A program made the translations under genes and the position numbers. This document shows positions 913 through 38,775 of a stretch of DNA of 40,288 nt, in pieces. How positions within the stretch are numbered: position 1 is the stretch's first letter; each line of letters starts with the position of its first letter. Source of the stretch: a virus. The notes beneath the pieces are model-generated. The model saw only the letters and a list, made by a program, of their open reading frames with translations, was not told where the DNA came from and did not search any database. The stretch is taken from positions 1-40,288 of IMG/VR virus record IMGVR_UViG_3300017923_000005; one strand, given 5' to 3'.

Positions 913-3795
913 TTAAGCTGCTTTAACGTCGTCCTTAGCCTCCCCATATGAAGGGCCGTATCCGCAGTCGTATTTCCACTCCACAGGCAGCCACGGGCAG
1001 TCTTCCCGGGTTTTGTCCACCACAGTATTATCCAGTAACTTTTTAACTCCGCTCGTACCTTTTGGTAGCTGGAACACTATGGAGTCATGTACCGTCAAAA
1101 TAACCCTACCGCCCAGGGGCCGTATAGCCTTATCCAAGTCAGTCAGGTTTTTTCCAACTATGTCTGTTGAAGTGGTCTGGATTCTGGCATTAACAGCCTG
1201 GCGAGCCACGCGATTAATCATTCTGGGATTATGAGCAGCTATGGGGAATCTGCGTCTGCGCCCGGTGAATGTGTACGTGAACTTAAATGACGATACGAAG
1301 TTCTGCGTCGATGTTATGTATTTATGGACTCCCGGGTATGTATCAAAGAATGACTTTAGATACTCCTCAGCTTCCTCGAGAGTAATCTTGATACGCATAT
1401 CAGACCAAAGCTTAGCCTGGAGAGTAGAGGCCATCATACAATAGATAGTCCCGAAGTTGACCTTCTTTGCTACCTGCCTTTTCATGTAATGGTCCGTGCT
1501 TTTATCCTCTTTGTTGGCCAGTATTTCTTCATACGAATATTCACTTATACCCGAGGCCGTTAGACAATGAAGATCCTTGCCGTTATTGAAGGCGTCAATA
1601 AGCGCCTCATCTTTTGAATAAGCGCAAAGCACCCTCATTTCGGCGTTGGATATATCAAGATCATAAAGGTCGTATTCATCTGAATCGGGTCGGAACAAAG
1701 CCTTTAGGTTTAAATCCGCCTCCTTTAAATAGAAGGGGACGTTCTGTAGGTTCGGATTTGAAGAGCTCAGCCTGAACGTAGCTGTGCCAGTCTGATTGAA
1801 TTTGCAGTGCAGCTTACCGTCAAACTCGGACATATTTATCCAGTTCAACAAGTAGGTATGCACGCACTTTTCAATTTTCCTGAAGGACAGCAAAGTATTG
1901 ATAAAGTCATCATCAAACTGTTCTCCCAACGCCGTCAGTGTCTCAGCGTCTGTACTGGCTTCGCCTGTCTTGTCGCTGGTCTTTATTATCGGGTATTTGA
2001 ATTCTTCAAACAATATCCTTTTTAAGTCCGGTGAACTGCTACTCGTATTAAATCTGTACCCGACACGGGTATACAGAGCATCTTCCAATTCACTCAGAGT
2101 TTCATTCAATTTTTCAGTATATTGAATAGCCCTGTCACGATCTAACCTGACTCCGTTATATTCCATGTCCGCTATGGACATGCAAAGGGGCATTGAATAA
2201 TTATCAAGCCCATAACGCACGCTTTTGGTAGGCAGTTTGAACCCCACAGTCCTGCTTGTCTTTTTTACAACCTCATTATCCTTCTTAAGTCTTTTCATCT
2301 GCTCGCCTGCTATCATCCTCGTAACCATAGCATCAATCGCAGCATACTTAAGCATCTTGTTTATTTCCACATCCTCAAACGTAGCAGGTTCAGGCTCGGG
2401 TATATTGTATTCAGGCAAATCTATACCGAGATCTTCAGGGGTTATTCTGGACAACATATTGGTGACGGCTTTCTGGTACTTCTTAAGCACTACCTGTTCA
2501 CCTTTTAGTTTCCTAGTCTTTACCTCTATCAGATCCTGGTATTGCCCGAGGCTATACCCGGCTTCTACCCACTCAGCACAGTATTTTAGGCGCGCATCTT
2601 TATCCAGGCTCAGCCAGAAATCCAGCATGGCTTTTTCTTTTACCTGCTTTAATTCAGCCAGCTTTTCATCGTACTCTTTTTTGCGTTCATGGTTTATACT
2701 CGCTAGTTCAGCTTTTAGTTCCTCCTCGTATTTGGCCATATAAGGAAAATAGTCTTTGGTAAGCGTTTTCAGGGAATATTCACCTTGCTTGTTCTCTTCC
2801 AATGCGTGCTCGCCAAGCATAGTGTCGTACGCAGGGTTTCGGAGCTTAAACTCGTACCTGTGCAACAATTCCTGAACGTCGAATTTAGCATTGTGCATTA
2901 TAAGCGACACATACTCAGGATCGCATGCTTCCTCTATGCTCTCTTTTATTTTTTCAATCTCTTCAGGAGTAAACACGCAATCCCTGTGCTTATACGGGAG
3001 GCCCAGGCCTTGGTGGTCCTTCCAGGAAAGTGAAACAGCTATCATTTTCTGCGAATGATTATAAGGCTCAAGCCCTGTAGTTTCAGTATCTACACTCACC
3101 GCAAGACGTTGACCTTTCTTTTCATAGTTCTCTCTAGCATAGCTTTTTAATTTGTTAAGCTCTCCAAGTATATCATCAACTGTTTGAGGAGTTGCTATAT
3201 CGAAATCACTTTCATCAACAGGTTTCCTAAGCAGTTTATACGCTTTATTTATGTCATTTTCGAGTACAGGGATCAGACCAGGAGATTTTTTAACAGTCCA
3301 GGCATGATATGTGACAATTACAGCCGCAGCACCCCCTGAATGTTTATACTCATACAGGCTACCGCGTAAATCTTTTGGTTTCCCCTTTATACCCACAGAT
3401 TTGGCTGCTTCGGTCCCTAAAGCTATAATGACTTTAGGTTTAGCCTGGTCCAGATACATTTTAAGATGAGCAGAGCATTGATTATACGTATTTATGTTAA
3501 CCTTATACCCGAACTTCTTTGGGCAGCACTTGACTGCGTAAGTAAAAGCTTTTGACGGCTGCTCAGGCTTAGGGAGTTCTTTATTCAAGGATTTAAATAT
3601 GTTCCGTATTACAGCATACCCATTACTATGAAACGGGCCTCTTTTAATATCGTAGGTATCGGGGAATGCCCCTATAACTACAATGTCTGGATTACGTGCT
3701 CCGTCCACCGAAATCATATCGGCGTCAAATAAAGCACAATCCTTGCAAGTACCGGGTTTTATTGTTGAGGGTGATTTATTTCTATTACTCTTCAC
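913..3795 (-). CDS. DNA polymerase, family A, fused to an N-terminal UDG-like domain
   Basis: This is a 960-residue fusion and probably the replicative polymerase. Residues 10-190 resemble family 4 uracil-DNA glycosylases. Four cysteines are placed as for a 4Fe-4S cluster (C17, C20, C90/91, C107), but the GEAPG motif reads GAFPD and the usual HP motif reads YHA, so base-excision activity is doubtful. Residues 230-490 are a proofreading 3'-5' exonuclease with DTE (D236, E238), HNAKFD (N302, D306) and YAAID (Y484, D488), and a charged insertion at about 355-475. Residues 535-960 are the polymerase: motif A DISNAEMR (D714), motif B from R773 through K777/K778 to F781 and Y785, and motif C HDS (H903, D904). 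HDS replaces the usual HDE. The start is GTG, with AAAGGAGG five bases upstream. UDG-polymerase fusions are known in Bacillus phages such as SPO1. Confidence 0.95.
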   Translation of the reverse strand: MKSNRNKSPSTIKPGTCKDCALFDADMISVDGARNPDIVVIGAFPDTYDIKRGPFHSNGYAVIRNIFKSLNKELPKPEQPSKAFTYAVKCCPKKFGYKVNINTYNQCSAHLKMYLDQAKPKVIIALGTEAAKSVGIKGKPKDLRGSLYEYKHSGGAAAVIVTYHAWTVKKSPGLIPVLENDINKAYKLLRKPVDESDFDIATPQTVDDILGELNKLKSYARENYEKKGQRLAVSVDTETTGLEPYNHSQKMIAVSLSWKDHQGLGLPYKHRDCVFTPEEIEKIKESIEEACDPEYVSLIMHNAKFDVQELLHRYEFKLRNPAYDTMLGEHALEENKQGEYSLKTLTKDYFPYMAKYEEELKAELASINHERKKEYDEKLAELKQVKEKAMLDFWLSLDKDARLKYCAEWVEAGYSLGQYQDLIEVKTRKLKGEQVVLKKYQKAVTNMLSRITPEDLGIDLPEYNIPEPEPATFEDVEINKMLKYAAIDAMVTRMIAGEQMKRLKKDNEVVKKTSRTVGFKLPTKSVRYGLDNYSMPLCMSIADMEYNGVRLDRDRAIQYTEKLNETLSELEDALYTRVGYRFNTSSSSPDLKRILFEEFKYPIIKTSDKTGEASTDAETLTALGEQFDDDFINTLLSFRKIEKCVHTYLLNWINMSEFDGKLHCKFNQTGTATFRLSSSNPNLQNVPFYLKEADLNLKALFRPDSDEYDLYDLDISNAEMRVLCAYSKDEALIDAFNNGKDLHCLTASGISEYSYEEILANKEDKSTDHYMKRQVAKKVNFGTIYCMMASTLQAKLWSDMRIKITLEEAEEYLKSFFDTYPGVHKYITSTQNFVSSFKFTYTFTGRRRRFPIAAHNPRMINRVARQAVNARIQTTSTDIVGKNLTDLDKAIRPLGGRVILTVHDSIVFQLPKGTSGVKKLLDNTVVDKTREDCPWLPVEWKYDCGYGPSYGEAKDDVKAA

Positions 3796-10489: not shown

Positions 10490-10596
10490 GTATTTTTATA
10501 TAAACGAAAAAAAAATGAACCTTACCCCTTAATTTTTCCTAAAAAAGACTTATAATATATCACTTAGTCAATTTAAAAAAGGCAGAGGTTTTGTGT

Positions 10597-11592
10597 ATGG
10601 ATGCTTCGAAGGTTAAGAAAGGCGTGGCGAAAGATATTTGTGAGTTTTATTCACGGGGGATACAAACAACCAAATATCAAGGTACTAACTTCAATGACTA
10701 CATAAAAAACAAACAGGTTGTTACTGAGTCTCTTGATACCTGGTTGAGAGAATATCTCTATGAAGAGATAGCCGAAGATAGAAAGAAAGAACTCCGCTCA
10801 AAAGTTTTGTCCAACGTGTTTTTCCTTATTATACACGAAGCTAAGAATTGGAATTTATCCAGTACTGTATTTGAAGAAGCTGTTCAGAACGCGTGTATTG
10901 CAGTAGTAGAAGCAATGGATAAATTTGATCCTTCCAAGAACGTAAAGTTCTCAACCTTTATTATGCAGTTCCACGTAATAAAAACGGCGTTTAGGGAAGC
11001 CATTAGTTCGCATTGTGTAGTCAGAATGCCTGGTGGGATAAATAAGAAAACATCAGCTAAAGCCAAAAATCTTACGATCTTTGAGGTTAATCCGGATTCG
11101 ACAAAGCACCATAAATACACGGATGAAGAGGATTACGGGACAAAGAATGGTGTAGTTAGCGGGGTTAATTCTATATTATTTTTTAACGACGCAAAAGAAG
11201 AATGCGTATCTGCTAAAAATGAAGAGGATAACGACAACCAGGCGAAGTCTTATGATACCCAGTTTGTAGAGGAATTTGTTTTTAATAGCGCGGTTGGTAA
11301 TGATAATTCCCAAAAAAGTTTGGAAAATCAATTCTTCGCTGGTGAGATAAAAGATCTGTGCGAGAAGGCGCTTTGCACCGATGAAGCCATGCTAACCGAT
11401 AATGAGAAATTAACCTTGAAACATAAATACGGGCTTCTGGGCACTCCTGTTTTGCGAAACAAAGAAATTGTCAGCCTCTTAAAGTCGCAAGGAACAAGAG
11501 TGTCAGAACCCCGTGTGTGCCAATATAGCAAAAACGGGCTATATAAGCTCAAGAAGTTTTTTATAAAACATGGAGCCGACATAGCCCCATAA
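10597..11592 (+). CDS. Sigma-70-like RNA polymerase sigma factor
   Basis: This is a 331-residue protein. Residues about 90-150 match sigma region 2: EEAVQNACIAVVEAMDKFD, then VKFSTF, then a helix ending in VVRMP. A polar linker at 160-255 lacks a recognisable region 3. Residues about 270-325 fit region 4: LTLKHKYGLLGTP, a helix with KEIVSLLKSQG, and the recognition helix VSEPRVCQY...LYKLKKF. It should direct a polymerase to phage promoters, plausibly the one whose beta/beta' fusion is encoded at 20506. The frame also opens with TTG at 10591, but ATG 10597 has AGAGG eight bases upstream. It is isolated between leftward genes. A 10-base sequence at the ribosome binding site is repeated inverted at the stop codon. 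Confidence 0.85.
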   Translation: MDASKVKKGVAKDICEFYSRGIQTTKYQGTNFNDYIKNKQVVTESLDTWLREYLYEEIAEDRKKELRSKVLSNVFFLIIHEAKNWNLSSTVFEEAVQNACIAVVEAMDKFDPSKNVKFSTFIMQFHVIKTAFREAISSHCVVRMPGGINKKTSAKAKNLTIFEVNPDSTKHHKYTDEEDYGTKNGVVSGVNSILFFNDAKEECVSAKNEEDNDNQAKSYDTQFVEEFVFNSAVGNDNSQKSLENQFFAGEIKDLCEKALCTDEAMLTDNEKLTLKHKYGLLGTPVLRNKEIVSLLKSQGTRVSEPRVCQYSKNGLYKLKKFFIKHGADIAP

Positions 11593-17511: not shown

Positions 17512-19188
17512 ATGTCTTTTGACTCAAATCCGCTTACTTCTTCCGTTAACGCGGAAACCAAATATACTAAAATGTATAATAATCCAGGCTTCGATTATAT
17601 GTCGGAGATGCTGCCCAAAAATATACAAGAGTTATTTAAATGGGCGGAACTGGTTTATAACAATGCTCCCATTATAGCTAACGGAGTTAAGAAGCTGATT
17701 AATTACCCGCTTACAAGTTTTGTTTATAAAACAAATTCTGAAAGCATACGGGAAAAGACCAAAGACTTGGTAGAGAAAAAACTCAATCTAAGGTCTCATT
17801 TAATCAATCTCGGCGTGGATTATTACATCTACGGTAATGCCTTCAGAACTGTGTATTTTCCGTTTGATCGTTACCTTAAATGCTCAAGGTGCAATAAATC
17901 TGTAGCTATAAACTATGCGGACTATAAAATAGTAAGAGGCAAGGTAGTATTGAATTGTGAGTGCGGGTACAAAAGACCTGCGGATGTTGTGGATGAGGAG
18001 TCCTCTGATATTAGCAGAATTCGGCTGGTATCCTGGGATCCGAAGCAGATAGATATGTCGTTTAATCCAGTTACTTGTGATTCGACGTATTACTATTCAC
18101 TTCCGCCGAGTCTTAGAAAGGGTCTTGCTGCGAATGATCCTACCATGTTCAATACTCTGCCGAAGATTTTTCTGGAATCCTATTATAAGAATAGGTCGGT
18201 TAAATTTGGTGCCAACCTGTACCATTTCAAAGCCCCAGGCCTTTCAGGGTACGCAACCGGTTGGGGAATATCTCCTCTCATGCCGGCGCTCAAACCTTAT
18301 CTGTATGTGTCCATACTTCGTAAGGCATCTGAGGCTATTGGCCTCGAGCACATAACTCCCCAGAAAATACTTTATCCTGAATCCAGGACAAACGACCCCT
18401 CGGTTTTTTCAAGCATGTCAAAATGGAAGTCCGAGATCCAATCCGCTGTAAAAAGATGGAGGATGGATCCTAACCATGTGATGCTCGCTCCTTATCCGAC
18501 TGGGTCTGTGAATATTGGCAGCCAGGGACGTGGGCTCATGCCTACGGAGGAAATTCGGCAGGCTAATCAAGAAATGGCCCTCTCTATGGATGTGCCCCCT
18601 GATTTTATCTATGGGTCTGGTACTATTGATAAAAGTACCGTGTCCTTGAGGATTCTTGAGAATCAGCTCACGCCTTATGTTGAGCAACTTACTGACTACA
18701 TGAATTGGATTATCGACAAGATAAATGCTAAGTATGACAAAGAGTACTGCCAGATAGAACTTTCTCCGTTTACATTGGCGGACGACACTATGAAAACCCA
18801 GCTTCTCATGCAGACAGCTGGCAATATGACGTCCAAGAAAACTCTTATGGAGTCTATCGGTCTGGATCCTGATGAAGAATATGAAAATATGAAGAATGAG
18901 GCCGTAAAGAGCTACACAAATAAAAAGGAAGTGGAGCAGGAAATATCCGACCTAGAACAGAATATTTCTACCAGAACTCAGGAAGAAACGGCTGCGGAAA
19001 CTACCGGTAAGATCCCCGCATATAATCAGCAAAAATTATTCGCCCATGCTCAGTCCATAGCGCAGCAATTAATAACGATACCCTATGAGGAACGTAGATC
19101 GCAGCTGTCTAAACTGCAGAATGAGGATTACGTGATGTGGGCCATGGTTTCAAAGCAGTTGGAATCGTTGCATGAAGAAAAGGATTGA
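17512..19188 (+). CDS. Phage portal protein with an internal zinc ribbon
   Basis: This is a 558-residue protein. The order of features is that of tailed-phage portals: a helical N-terminal wing, the stretch around residue 105 (YYIYGNAF), a long central region rich in aromatic beta strands, a QGRGLMPTEEIRQANQEMA stem helix, and a C-terminal KTLMESIGLDPDEE segment seen in many portals. Portals form the dodecameric ring at the capsid vertex through which DNA is packaged. An unusual insert has C124 and C127 paired with C149 and C151, a likely zinc ribbon. The last 100 residues are polar and helical. ATG with GGAG nine bases upstream. It begins the rightward late block. No terminase gene lies in the window. 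Confidence 0.9.
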   Translation: MSFDSNPLTSSVNAETKYTKMYNNPGFDYMSEMLPKNIQELFKWAELVYNNAPIIANGVKKLINYPLTSFVYKTNSESIREKTKDLVEKKLNLRSHLINLGVDYYIYGNAFRTVYFPFDRYLKCSRCNKSVAINYADYKIVRGKVVLNCECGYKRPADVVDEESSDISRIRLVSWDPKQIDMSFNPVTCDSTYYYSLPPSLRKGLAANDPTMFNTLPKIFLESYYKNRSVKFGANLYHFKAPGLSGYATGWGISPLMPALKPYLYVSILRKASEAIGLEHITPQKILYPESRTNDPSVFSSMSKWKSEIQSAVKRWRMDPNHVMLAPYPTGSVNIGSQGRGLMPTEEIRQANQEMALSMDVPPDFIYGSGTIDKSTVSLRILENQLTPYVEQLTDYMNWIIDKINAKYDKEYCQIELSPFTLADDTMKTQLLMQTAGNMTSKKTLMESIGLDPDEEYENMKNEAVKSYTNKKEVEQEISDLEQNISTRTQEETAAETTGKIPAYNQQKLFAHAQSIAQQLITIPYEERRSQLSKLQNEDYVMWAMVSKQLESLHEEKD

Positions 19189-19461: not shown

Positions 19462-20109
19462 ATGGAGCGTAAACGAAAAGCCAATGAACTTAATTTTGAA
19501 AAGAAGATAGATGATATTATAGGCGTAGTTGAATTCGCTAAAGCACAGCACAACGAAGTCAAACGCTTGAATGAGATTCTTAAAAAGATGATTCAATCCG
19601 CAGGAGGCCATTTATGGATGAAAGACCTCCAGGGCAGGTACATTTACTGTGATCCTACATGGTGCGAGGTGTTTTTCAGAATGCCTTCGGATTGTGAAAT
19701 TGAGGGGTTCACAGATTGGGACTTATTGGCTGAGTTTAGAGAAGATGGCAGCATTCATACTTTCGGAGACGTGTGCTATGGTACCGATAAAGATTGTATA
19801 GAGAGAAAAGAGCAAAGCCATTACGTTGAGTTGGGATGGATAAAAGACGAGTTATTTATATTGGACGTTATAAAAACTCCGGTATTTACTAACGGTGAAT
19901 TGGTAGGGACGGTCGGCTTTGCCAGAAACCTGTCATCTGAATCAAACTGGATTTGCGACGAGATAAGGAAATTGCTCAATGAGGGGCAAGCTGAGGTTAT
20001 CTACAAACAGGATAATAACGTAGCAGCCTATAAAATAAATCGTATTAATCATGGCAAAGGTCGGAAATGCTTGAATACATTTCCGGGACCTAATGTGTGC
20101 AAAGTTTAA
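19462..20109 (+). CDS. PAS-domain protein
   Basis: This is a 215-residue protein. Residues 1-45 form a charged helix. Residues about 45-155 form a PAS fold: GGHLWMKDLQGRYIYCD, then an FF-helix, then GFTDWDL, and the late strands FILDVIKTPVF...VGTVGFARNLS. PAS domains bind small ligands, haem or flavin, or dimerise. No kinase, cyclase or HTH output domain is attached, so any signal must pass by protein contact. Its place between portal and RNA polymerase genes on the late strand is surprising; it could modulate the phage polymerase or be a host-derived decoy. Five cysteines occur in the PAS part and two in the tail. The ribosome binding site is weak (AGG, eight bases). Confidence 0.85.
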   Translation: MERKRKANELNFEKKIDDIIGVVEFAKAQHNEVKRLNEILKKMIQSAGGHLWMKDLQGRYIYCDPTWCEVFFRMPSDCEIEGFTDWDLLAEFREDGSIHTFGDVCYGTDKDCIERKEQSHYVELGWIKDELFILDVIKTPVFTNGELVGTVGFARNLSSESNWICDEIRKLLNEGQAEVIYKQDNNVAAYKINRINHGKGRKCLNTFPGPNVCKV

Positions 20110-20131: not shown

Positions 20132-20497
20132 ATGTATGAACAAACTGTATTTGAATCGTTCACTGAAAAAGAAAAAGAGATTCAGTCCGAGCCTCCGTTT
20201 TTTGGTGGGCCTATGTACTCTAACAACAAGCAGTCCATGCAGGATGTAATTGTTCGTTACTTTATAGGCGTTCTGACCAATGAAAGTGACGTAGCCATGA
20301 TAGAGCATATTATGACTAAGTCCTTGAATTGTGAAGATCAACTTAAAAACCCTGGGGATGTTCTTGTGATTAGTGAGCAAGGTACGTTCGATAAAGACGG
20401 ATGCTACAATGTAGTTGTTAAGTACCTCGAAAAAGTAGATCCCGGGTCGGTAAATAAAGACAACGTGAATAACGACGAAGATGTAACAGAAATATAG
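20132..20497 (+). CDS. Unknown protein between the PAS and RNA polymerase genes
   Basis: This is a 121-residue acidic protein with no recognisable family. It has no membrane segment or signal peptide. The central part (residues 25-105) alternates helix-forming and beta-forming stretches; the last 18 residues are Asn/Asp/Glu-rich. The gene ends eight bases before the polymerase ATG, so the two are probably translated together, and an accessory role for the polymerase is possible. The only purine-rich site (GGGAG) lies 15 bases before the ATG, unusually far. Confidence 0.7.
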   Translation: MYEQTVFESFTEKEKEIQSEPPFFGGPMYSNNKQSMQDVIVRYFIGVLTNESDVAMIEHIMTKSLNCEDQLKNPGDVLVISEQGTFDKDGCYNVVVKYLEKVDPGSVNKDNVNNDEDVTEI

Positions 20498-20505
20498 GAT
20501 TTTTG

Positions 20506-23500
20506 ATGGCTAATACTAGGAATATAATTACAGATCCTGAGAATATTCGTAAAGAAATTATCAGGAAACTGAAAAATGCCATTCGTAACAAGTTTCCAAT
20601 TACAGCTGGCAAATTTGTAGCGGATTTAGACGACCTCGAAGTTAAGAGAGTGGATATGCCTCACGCCAGGCAGCGCAACATACTTTTGTCGAAGGGCAAT
20701 GCTAGTGATGCTGTCTACGTGGATCTTAACATAAAATATTCCGACGGTAATAAAAGCCTGTACAAGTTAAAAAATCACCGTCTGGTAAATATCCCTTATT
20801 TTACCAATAGGTACACTATGATTGTTGATGGCAACGAATATTCCATTGTCAATCAAATGCGTACTAAATCAGGGGTTTACACTCGCAAGCGAGATAACGA
20901 TGAATTGGAAAGCTCCTTTAATCTATCTAAAGGTGCGAATTTCAAGCTTATAATGGAACCGGATTCAGGGCACTTCAAAGTGAATATGCTTGGATCCGTC
21001 ATGCCTATGTACGCGCTTCTTAAGATACTTGGCGCTCCCGATGGTGAGATAAGGTCAGCTCTAGGCTCAGACTTATTCTCGACCAATGAAAACGTTACCC
21101 CCAATCAAATGGAGAGAGTACGTACGACTCTTTATAAAAAATTGGTATCGAGTAATTCGAACCTTGGTACTTCTGCGTCTGCTTCCGAAAAAGAACAAAA
21201 AATACGCGAATACTTTTCAAATACCAAGCTTGATTCAGAGACAACTAAAATTACCCTGGGCAAATCTTTTACCAAGGTAAACTATTCGTCCATTCTTGAA
21301 GCTGCCAAGAAGATCCTACGCGTATACAATGACAAGGACGATGTCGATGAGCGGGACAACCTGGAATTTCAGCATATATACTCCGTAGAAGATATTTTGC
21401 AGGAAGTAATCGACAAGAATAAGGATGCCGTAAATAAGATAGCATCTAAGCTAAAATCATTTACCCCGACCGGTAATGAGGAAGAAGACCAGGCAAAGCT
21501 GAAATCCATATTTTCTCCCGTTTATTTTTCAAAGCCCATTCGTAATTTTATTACGACCAGCTCTATATCCAGGCTGCCATCTCAAATTAATCCCATGGAA
21601 ATAATGGATACAGCGTCCATTGTGACCAGACTGGGAGAGGGTGCTATATCTTCGGAGAGGGCGGTACCGGAAGAAACAAGGTCGGTTAATTACTCCTATA
21701 TGGGGTCCATCGACCCCGTCGCTACTCCTGAGAGCTCAAAAGTCGGCATTGATAATCACGTAACAATCTCCGCCAAAAAGGGTGACGACAACGAATTTTA
21801 TAAAGAGGTCCGGAACACAAAGACCGGTAAGCTTGAAGAACATCGGGCTATTGATTTGCATAATAAAGTCGTTGGATTCCCAGACCCCTTGCACACAAAG
21901 GGTAAAGAGAAGGATACCGACGTAGTCCCTGCGGTGCACAAAGGTAATTTCAAGAAAGTCAAGCGCCGTGAATTGGATTATCAGATACCAAGTCCGCATG
22001 ACCTGAATACCGTAACTACCGCCACATTGCCTTTCATAAACGCTAACCAGGCCAATAGGTTGGTTATGGGTGCGAAGCATGTGCAGCAGGCCATGCCCTT
22101 GAAAGATCCGGAATCCCGCTTGGTGAATGCCAATATTAGTGACGTCGGTGTGGATAGTACCGTTAAAAAGCTCGGAGGGTTCCTAATACCTAAATCCCCT
22201 GTTGACGGGACCGTATCAAAAATATCGGATGATTTTATCCATATAAAGGATAGTTCCGGCAAGGTTCACAAGGTGGATTACGAGCATGATTTGCCCCTAG
22301 CCACTAAGACGCTTCTGGACAACCCTTTGCTTATTAAAAAAGGTGACAGGGTAAAAAAGGGCCAGGAACTTGCTGGTAGTAATTTTACCAAAGACGGTGA
22401 GCTTGCTGTGGGCAAAACCCTCAGCACTGGGTACATGCCGTATCATGGTATGAACCATGAAGACGGGATAGTTATTTCCGAAGATACTGCCAAGAAGATG
22501 ACTTCTGTTCATTCGGAAAAAATAACCGTGCGTCTGGATAAAATGAGGACGTTGGATAAGTCCAAGTACACTTCGTTGTTCCCGACAAAGTTTACACAAA
22601 AACAGCTAAATAAATTGGATAGTGACGGAGTTGTCAAAAAAGGTGCAACTCTTGAGTATGGCGACCCCGTAGTTCTCGTGTTGGAAGATAACTCCAAGAG
22701 CAGAACCAACCAGATATTGGGGCAGCTTCATAAGAGTTTAAAGACTCCGTTTAAAGACTGTTCCGAAGTATACGAAGACAGTAAGCCCGCCAAGGTTTTA
22801 CAGGTATCCAAGCGTGGAACCCTGGTTACCGTGATGCTGAAGGTTGAAAAGCCCATGGCTATCGGAGACAAACTGGCAGGCTCATACGGAAATAAGGGAG
22901 TTGTAACAAAAATACTTCCTACTGATCAGATGCCTACAGACGAAGAGGGCAATTCATTAGATGTGCTTCTCTCCCCTGCAGGCGTACCTAGCCGTATTAA
23001 CCCGGCTCAGATACTTGAAAGTTCACTTGGGAAAGTTGCTGCCAAGACCGGCAAAAAGTACGACGTGGAAAACTTCTCCAGGGACGACTACGTAAAGTAC
23101 GTTAAGGATGAGATGAAAAAACACGGAGTGAAAGATAAGGAAACCGTAACCGACCCCATAACAGGCAAAAAAATACCGAAAGTTTTTGTTGGTAAGCAGT
23201 ACATGCACAAACTGTTTAAGACCAGCGATTCGAACTACTCAGCGCGTGGGATTGATGGGCCGTATGACCAAGACGACGCACCTACTGGGTCTGGAGAAAT
23301 GGGCCCGAAGGCTTTGGGTGGCATGGAAGTTAATGCCCTTATAGCTCATAACGCCAGAAACTTTATGAAGGACGCCAGTGCCCTTAGAAGTTCCAAAAAT
23401 GCCGACTTCTGGAATTCGTTTAAGTATGGCCAGATAGCTCATATGCCCACCGAGAAAAAGACCTTTAACAGGTTTATGGATACGCTCAAGCAGGCCGGTG

Positions 23501-24921
23501 TTAAAGTGGATCGCAAAGGGGGAGAATTCTCCGCAGGGCCTTTGACGGATAATGATATTAAGAAGATGAGCCAGGGCGAAGTAAAAAATGCTCGCAGGCT
23601 TAATGCCAAGGATCTTTCTCCGGAAAAGGACGGCCTTTTTGATGAGAGAATTACTGGAGGTATGCAAGGTACCAAGTGGGGTCATATTGATTTAAAGGAA
23701 CCGGTTGTCAACCCTGTTTTTAAGGACGCGGCCGGAGCATTGCTTGGTATGACTTCCAAAGAATTAGAAAACTCTTTTCTTGAAAACGGTGGATCCGATA
23801 TAAAAAAGAAGCTGAACGCTATTGATACTAAAAAAGAACTTAGCAATATCGAAGATGAGCTCAATGATCCTAAGCTCAAGGGTTCAGCTTTGGATAAGAA
23901 AGTCAAGAAATATAAGTATTTGAAAGCATTGAATGATAAGGACTTGAAGCCTGGGGATGCCTATGTTCTTAGTAAAGTCCCGGTAACCCCGCCCATGATG
24001 AGGCCTGTAACGGTTGGAAAGACTGGTGACGTCATGGAAAACGACGCCAACTACCTTTACAGGGATCTTATACTTCAGAATAATTCGTTTAAGGACCTCG
24101 AGGAATCCGGTGTTGCCGACGAAGAGGATATAAAGGAAAACAGGAAAGCCTTGAGTAATAGAGTGTCGGAATTGACTGGGTTTATGGCCCCAAAAAGCGC
24201 CCAGCTTGCGGGCAAGGGCGTGAAGGGAGCCGCCAGTTTTATATCCGGAGATACGCCAAAGCAGGGGTATTTCCAGAAGAAGGTTGTTTATTCCAAGATG
24301 AACACTTCCGGCAGGTCCACTATCGTACCGGATAATACTCTAGGCCTTGACGAGGTTGGGCTGCCTGAAGAGGCCGCTTGGGAGATGTATAAACCTTTTA
24401 TTATACGGCGCATGGTCAAAATGGGGTACTCCTCTTATGAGGCTAAAAAACAGGTAGAGGAGAAGTCCGATACCGCTAAAACTGTACTCCAGGAAGAGCT
24501 GGGCGGCAGACCTGTCGTTATAAACAGAGCCCCGACTTTGTGGAGACATTCCATACTGGCTGCCAAGCCTAAACTGCGTTCCGACAAAAACCTCCACGTT
24601 AATACATTGTGGGAAAAAGCTACTAATCAGGATTACGATGGAGATGCTGAGCAGATACACGTCCCGGTATCAGATGACGCCGTAAAGGACGCATTTAATA
24701 TGCTGCCGTCAAAGCAGTTGTTCTCGGATAAAAAGCCCGGTGATCTGCTTATGGCTCCAACCAACGAACCTATAATGGGCCTCTACAAAGCTACAGAAAA
24801 TCTTGGCGGCTCCGGCTACAAGACAGGTAATGTAAAAAAGTTCAAGACAGAGAAAGAGGCCTGGGATGCTTACCACTCAGGCAGCTTGAGGATGACTGAC
24901 CTGGTCGAAATAGGTAGCTAA
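20506..24921 (+). CDS. Multisubunit-type RNA polymerase: beta fused to the N-terminal part of beta'
   Basis: This is a 1471-residue polypeptide. Beta landmarks come first: a SIDPVATPESSKVG block (about 400), GYMPYHGMNHEDGIV (about 642), GDKLAGSYGNKGVV (about 785), SPAGVPSRINPAQILE (about 822) and MGPKALGGMEVNAL (about 930). Beta' begins near 1040 with GLFDERITGG, runs through WGHIDLKEPV, VTPPMMRPV (about 1157), STIVPDNTLGLDEVGLP (about 1270) and INRAPTLWRHS (about 1338), and reaches the catalytic loop NQDYDGD (D1376, D1378, D1380). It ends about 90 residues later. The zinc-binding domain after GLFxERI is deleted, and the bridge helix and trigger loop are absent. They must be encoded elsewhere, as in other phages with split subunits. 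The frame opens at TTG 20503; ATG 20506 with AGGA is preferred. A terminator follows at once. Confidence 0.93.
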   Translation: MANTRNIITDPENIRKEIIRKLKNAIRNKFPITAGKFVADLDDLEVKRVDMPHARQRNILLSKGNASDAVYVDLNIKYSDGNKSLYKLKNHRLVNIPYFTNRYTMIVDGNEYSIVNQMRTKSGVYTRKRDNDELESSFNLSKGANFKLIMEPDSGHFKVNMLGSVMPMYALLKILGAPDGEIRSALGSDLFSTNENVTPNQMERVRTTLYKKLVSSNSNLGTSASASEKEQKIREYFSNTKLDSETTKITLGKSFTKVNYSSILEAAKKILRVYNDKDDVDERDNLEFQHIYSVEDILQEVIDKNKDAVNKIASKLKSFTPTGNEEEDQAKLKSIFSPVYFSKPIRNFITTSSISRLPSQINPMEIMDTASIVTRLGEGAISSERAVPEETRSVNYSYMGSIDPVATPESSKVGIDNHVTISAKKGDDNEFYKEVRNTKTGKLEEHRAIDLHNKVVGFPDPLHTKGKEKDTDVVPAVHKGNFKKVKRRELDYQIPSPHDLNTVTTATLPFINANQANRLVMGAKHVQQAMPLKDPESRLVNANISDVGVDSTVKKLGGFLIPKSPVDGTVSKISDDFIHIKDSSGKVHKVDYEHDLPLATKTLLDNPLLIKKGDRVKKGQELAGSNFTKDGELAVGKTLSTGYMPYHGMNHEDGIVISEDTAKKMTSVHSEKITVRLDKMRTLDKSKYTSLFPTKFTQKQLNKLDSDGVVKKGATLEYGDPVVLVLEDNSKSRTNQILGQLHKSLKTPFKDCSEVYEDSKPAKVLQVSKRGTLVTVMLKVEKPMAIGDKLAGSYGNKGVVTKILPTDQMPTDEEGNSLDVLLSPAGVPSRINPAQILESSLGKVAAKTGKKYDVENFSRDDYVKYVKDEMKKHGVKDKETVTDPITGKKIPKVFVGKQYMHKLFKTSDSNYSARGIDGPYDQDDAPTGSGEMGPKALGGMEVNALIAHNARNFMKDASALRSSKNADFWNSFKYGQIAHMPTEKKTFNRFMDTLKQAGVKVDRKGGEFSAGPLTDNDIKKMSQGEVKNARRLNAKDLSPEKDGLFDERITGGMQGTKWGHIDLKEPVVNPVFKDAAGALLGMTSKELENSFLENGGSDIKKKLNAIDTKKELSNIEDELNDPKLKGSALDKKVKKYKYLKALNDKDLKPGDAYVLSKVPVTPPMMRPVTVGKTGDVMENDANYLYRDLILQNNSFKDLEESGVADEEDIKENRKALSNRVSELTGFMAPKSAQLAGKGVKGAASFISGDTPKQGYFQKKVVYSKMNTSGRSTIVPDNTLGLDEVGLPEEAAWEMYKPFIIRRMVKMGYSSYEAKKQVEEKSDTAKTVLQEELGGRPVVINRAPTLWRHSILAAKPKLRSDKNLHVNTLWEKATNQDYDGDAEQIHVPVSDDAVKDAFNMLPSKQLFSDKKPGDLLMAPTNEPIMGLYKATENLGGSGYKTGNVKKFKTEKEAWDAYHSGSLRMTDLVEIGS

Positions 24922-24927
24922 AAAATA

Positions 24928-24959
24928 AGACCGGGCCCATACTTTGTATGGCCCGGTCT
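24928..24959. terminator. Bidirectional terminator between converging operons
   Basis: The strand 24928-24942 pairs with 24946-24959 in a 14 bp GC-rich stem with one bulge and a TTT loop. It is followed by TTTT on the plus side and by TTATTTTTTA on the minus side. It ends both the rightward polymerase block and the leftward gene that stops at 24966. Confidence 0.85.
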
Positions 24960-29175: not shown

Positions 29176-29190
29176 TCTTATAACAAAAAC
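29176..29190 (-). promoter_or_regulatory. TTTTTGTTATAAGAA promoter-like motif of the 33-codon gene
   Basis: The exact string TTTTTGTTATAAGAA stands between the terminator at 29229-29254 and the gene at 28993-29094. No rightward gene lies nearby, so this copy fixes the reading direction of the motif family as leftward. Confidence 0.55.
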
Positions 29191-38620: not shown

Positions 38621-38710
38621 ATACATTTACCACATACAAAATGCCGGAAAAATGCCATTTTCACATACATTTTAAAAATTTTAACAAATAATATCAGGTA
38701 GTTAGGGAGG

Positions 38711-38764
38711 GCGCACCTGAATGGGGTTCAGGGAGTCGCAGGTTCAAATCCTGCCGTCCCGACC
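38711..38764 (+). pseudogene. tRNA-Pro(GGG) 3' fragment forming the attP core
   Basis: From the right half of the D-arm (GCGC) onward the sequence matches a bacterial tRNA-Pro: anticodon stem CCTGA/TCAGG with loop ATGGGGT (anticodon GGG), variable loop, T-arm GCAGG/CCTGC with TTCAAAT, acceptor strand GTCCCGA and encoded CCA. The 5' acceptor strand and left D-arm are absent from the sequence to the left, so it cannot form a whole tRNA. Integration would restore the host gene. Confidence 0.85.
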
Positions 38765-38775
38765 AAATCATCAAT

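Follow-up and report, generated by a model that had tools for sequence, protein, structure and literature searches.

How can a phage use an RNA polymerase (RNAP) gene that stops in the middle of a subunit? The question is raised by a viral contig of 40,288 bases, IMG/VR record IMGVR_UViG_3300017923_000005 (hereafter the window, i.e. the whole stretch of DNA analyzed), in which one open reading frame (ORF) joins a β subunit to the N-terminal part of β' (β'N), about a third of that subunit, and ends shortly after the β' catalytic loop. This ORF is likely to encode the large chain of a bacterial-type (two-barrel) DNA-dependent RNAP from a large tailed phage. The enzyme that we consider probable consists of two chains, lacks alpha and is packaged in the virion; for this phage, the second chain, i.e. 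the C-terminal part of β' (β'C), and the packaging are deduced from relatives.

The β-β'N fusion gene

The fusion ORF (Table 1), which starts with an ATG preceded by AGGA, was matched by the Pfam families Rpb2_3 (E = 8.6e-7), Rpb2_6 (8e-55), Rpb1_1 (2e-17) and Rpb1_2 (7e-19), and had no Pfam match to Rpb1_3, Rpb1_4 or Rpb1_5. In profile searches against the Protein Data Bank (PDB), a profile of five relatives (A1) aligned to a cyanobacterial β chain (model 65-976 to residues 73-1036) and to B. subtilis β' (model 1010-1456 to residues 19-538), with E-values below 1e-70 for bacterial β and β' across most of the length. The AlphaFold2 model of residues 290-1471 had a mean predicted local distance difference test score (pLDDT) of 85.7, and its top Foldseek matches in the PDB were bacterial β chains (E = 1e-52).

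The β part is continuous in one chain (residues 1-1003) and ends at the equivalent of the E. coli β C-terminus. The junction is almost free of linker: the sequence ..TFNRFMDTLKQAGVKVDRKGGE, which matches the E. coli β end, is followed directly by FSAGPLTDNDIKKMSQGEVK..DGLF, the counterpart in the alignment of E. coli β' residues ~20-58; the β' zinc ribbon (CLCGKY..CEKCGVE) is deleted. The β'N part thus starts near E. coli β' residue 20, and it ends near B. subtilis residue ~535-540 or E. coli residue ~555, the latter being an extrapolation from aligned positions close to the end. Both two-barrel RNAP signatures are present, the GDKxxGxxGNKG type in β, with its lysines retained as K789 and K797 (window motif GDKLAGSYGNKG), and the NADFDGD type in β', which reads NQDYDGD. 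The initial annotation had described a β core followed by β' up to NQDYDGD, about 90 further residues and a stop, and this description was confirmed, as the ORF is intact and 91 residues separate the motif from a TAA codon. All the E. coli rifampicin-pocket residues compared (Q513, F514, D516, H526, R529 and S531) are replaced when the alignment is read at these positions, from which resistance to rifampicin would be predicted.

The end of the gene and the missing part of β'

The stop is followed at once by a hairpin, and none of 200 shuffled sequences folds as well; this agrees with the terminator proposed in the initial annotation, though the T-run is weak and the hairpin is not listed by a terminator consensus scan. 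No continuation of β' was found after the stop in any of the three frames. Those of the nearest relatives whose end can be read (L001, L138, L139, L140 and L141; 55-58% identity) stop where the window fusion does, with the C-terminus ..D(L/Y/F)V(E/D)IG, and the fusions of L002 (38%) and of Salmonella phage Arash (34%) stop at the same alignment column. Decay of a longer β-β' fusion, with its β' C-terminal part lost through a stop or a frameshift, is conceivable because a sister clade carries β, β'N and β'C in one chain of ~2050 residues; it is nevertheless very improbable, given an end common to window-clade members, Arash and L002, the lack of any β' remnant downstream, and relatives in which β'C is an intact separate gene. 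Frameshift or decay of the window fusion, a possibility raised in the initial annotation, was rejected on the conserved end and on the lack of β' past the stop. An assembly chimera of rpoB and rpoC pieces could be suspected for a gene known from one metagenomic contig, but its probability is negligible and it was refuted, as relatives of the fusion are known from numerous independent contigs, from phage isolates and from the genomes of bacterial isolates.

Neither the bridge helix nor the trigger loop is encoded in the window, as had been noted from the sequence at first: the corresponding family PF04998 had 0 matches in its 40,288 bases, and a tblastn with three β'C proteins gave a best E-value of only 0.39. 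The window holds replication genes, a portal gene and the RNAP gene, and it was read as an incomplete piece of a larger phage genome because no capsid or tail genes were recognized. In relatives, β'C is a separate protein of ~590-635 residues with Rpb1_5, whose matches to solved β' chains start ahead of the bridge helix; for the β'C of G003, a 127-kb record of the window clade (57% identity), a structure prediction also matches β' chains. A β'C match was found in 29 of the 31 relatives' records, most of which are possibly incomplete, and the other two are themselves fragments, 43.5 and 41.6 kb long. The fusion and β'C are paired as gp206 and gp216 in Arash (β'C 4.8 kb downstream), as D69_0261 and 0264 in Vibrio phage D69 (0.6 kb) and likewise in L002 (1.5 kb). 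In G003 they are 48 kb apart (fusion 43.2-47.6 kb, β'C 95.8-97.7 kb). From the DNA polymerase through the fusion, the gene order of the window largely follows that of G003, where the genes found to the right of the window fusion (helicase, flap exonuclease, ThyX, ribonucleotide reductase) occupy 56-79 kb; because of this arrangement, β'C is expected past the right end of the window. A search of viral contigs for the window's partner contig, with the G003 β'C as query, returned only G003 and one identical copy. The claim of the initial annotation that β'C lies elsewhere therefore stands for the relatives (both genes are visible at 45 of 87 representative loci), and the gene of the window's own phage was not seen.

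The absence of β'C from the window would also fit a phage that provides β-β'N only and takes the bridge helix and trigger loop from the host β', or whose fusion works alone. We regard this as hardly credible: the contig is a fragment, the relatives that encode β'C include the 127-kb record of the same clade, and the host β' is a full-length chain that would bring its own β'N. Two Desulfovibrio isolate genomes (G033 and G034) contain the fusion and β'C in addition to the host rpoB and rpoC.

Proposed assembly and packaging, and promoter-like motifs

The bacterial RNAP core comprises five subunits, in which the β C-terminus adjoins the β' N-terminus, and this adjacency would make the tethering of β to β' easy. 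In the two-chain enzyme proposed here, sequence and model place both active-site double-psi barrels (DPBB) on one polypeptide, and a second chain of ~630 residues, probably encoded tens of kb away in the window's phage, would supply the bridge helix and trigger loop. A single β gene per record was found in 22 of 22 relatives, and alpha, searched with the single Pfam family PF01000 (control positive in 13 of 14), in none of these records, which argues for a single alpha-less two-chain core. The β-β' tether may stand in for the scaffold of the alpha dimer, no alpha gene having been found. What keeps a phage RNAP assembled when alpha is missing has been named as unknown (PMC7598289), and this one lineage shows three solutions, with one, two or three chains.

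The enzyme would probably be made late, together with the portal, then packaged and injected, and would rely on a phage sigma factor to transcribe phage genes. For Arash, published virion mass spectrometry gave 3516 spectra for gp206, the most of all proteins, 1210 for gp216 and 467 for the sigma factor gp10 (PMC10585845). For the window's phage, homology and the place beside the portal point to packaging. Several observations weigh against this reading. The Arash authors leave open whether the proteins act immediately after injection or are abundant enzymes carried over (PMC10585845); the virion sigma gp10 differs from gp196, which is the one placed like the window sigma and is named neither in the text nor in the virion table of the paper (PMC10585845); the β'C of the window's own phage is absent from the contig; and a biochemical study of any family member was not found in the literature searched. 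The pairing with a sigma-like factor, part of the initial annotation, is plausible insofar as the window has a genuine Sigma70_r2 ORF, with homologues in L006, L007, G003 and the phage of Desulfovibrio sp. An276 and a position resembling that of Arash gp196; it is weakened by the sigma genes being detected in only 15 of the 22 relatives and undetected in 7.

The same two chains could instead form a non-virion enzyme for middle or late transcription, the early genes being left to the host RNAP, which would use TGTTATAAG (extended -10-like) sequences as promoters. This motif occurs at 866, 10284, 25529, 29177 and 32515 of the window, five copies against 0.49 expected (0 of 100 shuffles reach five), all on the minus strand, which is the strand of the replication-type genes and not that of the portal and RNAP genes. 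Its geometry is sigma-70-like (AAATTT-17-TATAAG), and the core, in most cases preceded by AAATTT at a distance of 17 bases, is found in 19 copies in two contigs of the An276 phage, where the fuller motif is ATTAAATTTTTG-N8-TTTTTGTTATAAGGATATG (L163-L168). The core is common to the window clade, including G003 and L007, and the An276 phage motif was not found in Arash and L002. The motif could serve the phage enzyme or the host RNAP, and the RNAP gene beside the portal also fits a non-virion role; we judge such a role unlikely, though worth serious consideration, as the Arash homologues rank top and fifth among the most-detected virion proteins (PMC10585845). The packaged two-chain enzyme thus remains the reading that we prefer.

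Table 1. Features of the window around the β-β'N fusion and their basis.
Feature	Position	Strand	Basis or remark
β-β'N RNA polymerase fusion, 1471 residues	20506..24921	+	Pfam, PDB profile match, AlphaFold2/Foldseek
β part, residues ~1-1003, nearly full-length	20506..23514	+	alignment with E. coli and S. aureus rpoB
β'N part, residues ~1008-1471	23527..24918	+	profile match and alignment
NQDYDGD catalytic loop of the β' double-psi barrel, residues 1374-1380	24625..24645	+	sequence; DYDGD invariant in A1
Hairpin right after the stop, terminator-like	24928..24959	+	fold -23.8 kcal/mol, z -6.07
Sigma-70-like factor (region 2)	10591..11592	+	Sigma70_r2 2.7e-7, phrog_351 2.3e-11
Portal protein	17512..19188	+	portal just upstream of RNAP also in L006, L007, L002, Arash, D69, G003
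Small protein, portal-RNAP interval	20132..20497	+	kept in the window clade (40-46%)
TGTTATAAG promoter-like motif	29177..29185	-	one of 5 window copies

Between the portal and the small protein, a 215-residue protein (19462-20109, +) looked PAS-like by eye and had no significant Pfam or PHROG match. Elsewhere, the window encodes a DNA polymerase A with an N-terminal domain of the uracil-DNA-glycosylase superfamily (913-3795, -; PF03167, 1e-6) and a tRNA-Pro(ggg) (38695-38765, +).

The family and its place among known polymerases

A scan of IMG/VR yielded 231 relatives, of which 80 were kept, and architectures were counted among 87 representatives. Besides the 45 with the fusion and a visible β'C, carried by Arash, Vibrio phages D69 and D181 and many IMG/VR contigs, 10 have the fusion with β'C outside the stretch examined, 27 have β, β'N and β'C in a single chain (~1850-2190 residues where complete), two are three-piece (β, β'N and β'C), one is intron-split and two are unclear. 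The arrangement first described is real, and its scope proved wider than described, extending over a large phage lineage with single-chain and three-piece versions. In two trees, the single-chain RNAPs cluster together (support 88 and 95, the first including the two unclear ones), and so do the split RNAPs (99 and 98); the window fusion falls with the Arash-type clade in both, and the three-piece form is nested inside the split clade (100). From this topology the β-β' joint is most simply ancestral to both groups, and the outgroup root between them fits gain or loss of the β' break alike. We tentatively suggest, as a possibility somewhat short of our preferred claims, that the lineage inherited a one-chain alpha-less β-β' of ~2050 residues, broke it once after the barrel and in a subgroup broke the joint again, and that in the window clade the enzyme belongs to large temperate phages which Desulfovibrio-type hosts carry as prophages and which transcribe from conserved promoters of their own.

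Arash (OQ632216) and Vibrio phages D69, D148 and D181 share with the window the fusion (33-35% identity) and the upstream portal, and the window fusion, ending at the same site, belongs to this type; their β'C is a separate gene 0.6-4.8 kb from the fusion, against 48 kb in the window's clade. The Arash-type genes are annotated merely as 'beta' or 'beta'' subunits or as hypothetical, and fusion and split go unmentioned in the available portion of the Arash paper (PMC10585845). A break of β' after the DPBB is common to phiKZ-like phages and cyanobacteria (PMC7598289). The virion and non-virion RNAPs of phiKZ/AR9 type have this break and no alpha, like the window family, and also lack omega; in contrast, their β is itself split and not joined to β', giving four or five core chains, and they come as two RNAP sets with no sigma homologue recognized by sequence, whereas the window family has a whole β fused to β'N, one RNAP per record and sigma-70-like genes. 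The difference from phiKZ and AR9 asserted in the initial annotation is hence upheld. Cyanobacterial RpoC1/RpoC2 are divided in the same zone (the window β'N ends near residue ~550 of 624 of gamma, and positions 27-331 of the β'C profile aligned to RpoC2 12-344), but cyanobacteria have a separate β together with alpha and omega. The recurrence of this zone fits a structurally tolerated break point and is not proof of common descent.

In the Helicobacter and Wolbachia fusion, the β C-terminus is also joined to the β' N-terminus, but β' is full, alpha and omega are present and the enzyme is cellular. The single-chain two-barrel RNAPs of crAss-like phages (gp66), YonO and P23-45 (gp64/gp96) likewise carry the DPBB domains on one chain and are described as highly divergent, unlike the window fusion with its strong matches to bacterial β/β' (E <1e-70). 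The mReC phages (Weinheimer & Aylward 2020), compared by description, are Caudovirales with bacterial-type β/β' and structural genes; they were described with β and β' subunits, 'fused' and 'fusion' being used for crAssphage only (PMC7481178). The two sets probably overlap, and the window family may include some mReC contigs. In the literature searched, outside which lie most subscription papers and bioRxiv preprints, neither a whole β fused to β'N with β'C apart nor the single-chain sister form had a prior description. The β' break zone is known; what seems new is the β-β'N fusion with a separate β'C. As the family aligns reliably with bacterial RNAP and has a member in a cultured Salmonella phage, its assembly, packaging and sigma use are testable.

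The whole β-β' core is found in one protein of ~2000-2190 residues in L034, L036, L041-L047, L049, L052, L055-L058, L060, L062, L065, L070-L072, L077, L081, L105 and L110. Intein-like insertions occur in the RNAP fusions of L030, L090, L084, L073 and L140, those of L030 and L090 sitting within the DGD catalytic motif. The fusion genes of L005 (2917-8485) and L108 are interrupted at the same β position (model 508/516), that of Vibrio phage D181 has a homing endonuclease ORF inside its gap, and L080 (9983-17375), near the single-chain clade, is broken at another β' site, close to the catalytic motif (model 1375-1405). An IscB-like ORF recognized by eye (451 residues, HNH-type motifs) adjoins the G003 β'C (L135 8026-9381, -; L136 6023-7378, -).

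Among 199 genomes of the family of Desulfovibrio sp. An276, only An276 itself proved to be a carrier, and in a search of 119 genomes the 4.8 kb left of its prophage border matched none of the others, so that no empty site was found. At the likely border (L166-L168, G034:C7), 24 kb along, G+C content falls from ~0.59 to ~0.46; a tyrosine integrase follows at 25.4-26.7 kb and then phage genes including β'C at 37.6 kb. A phage that brings a multisubunit-type RNAP of its own may be temperate.

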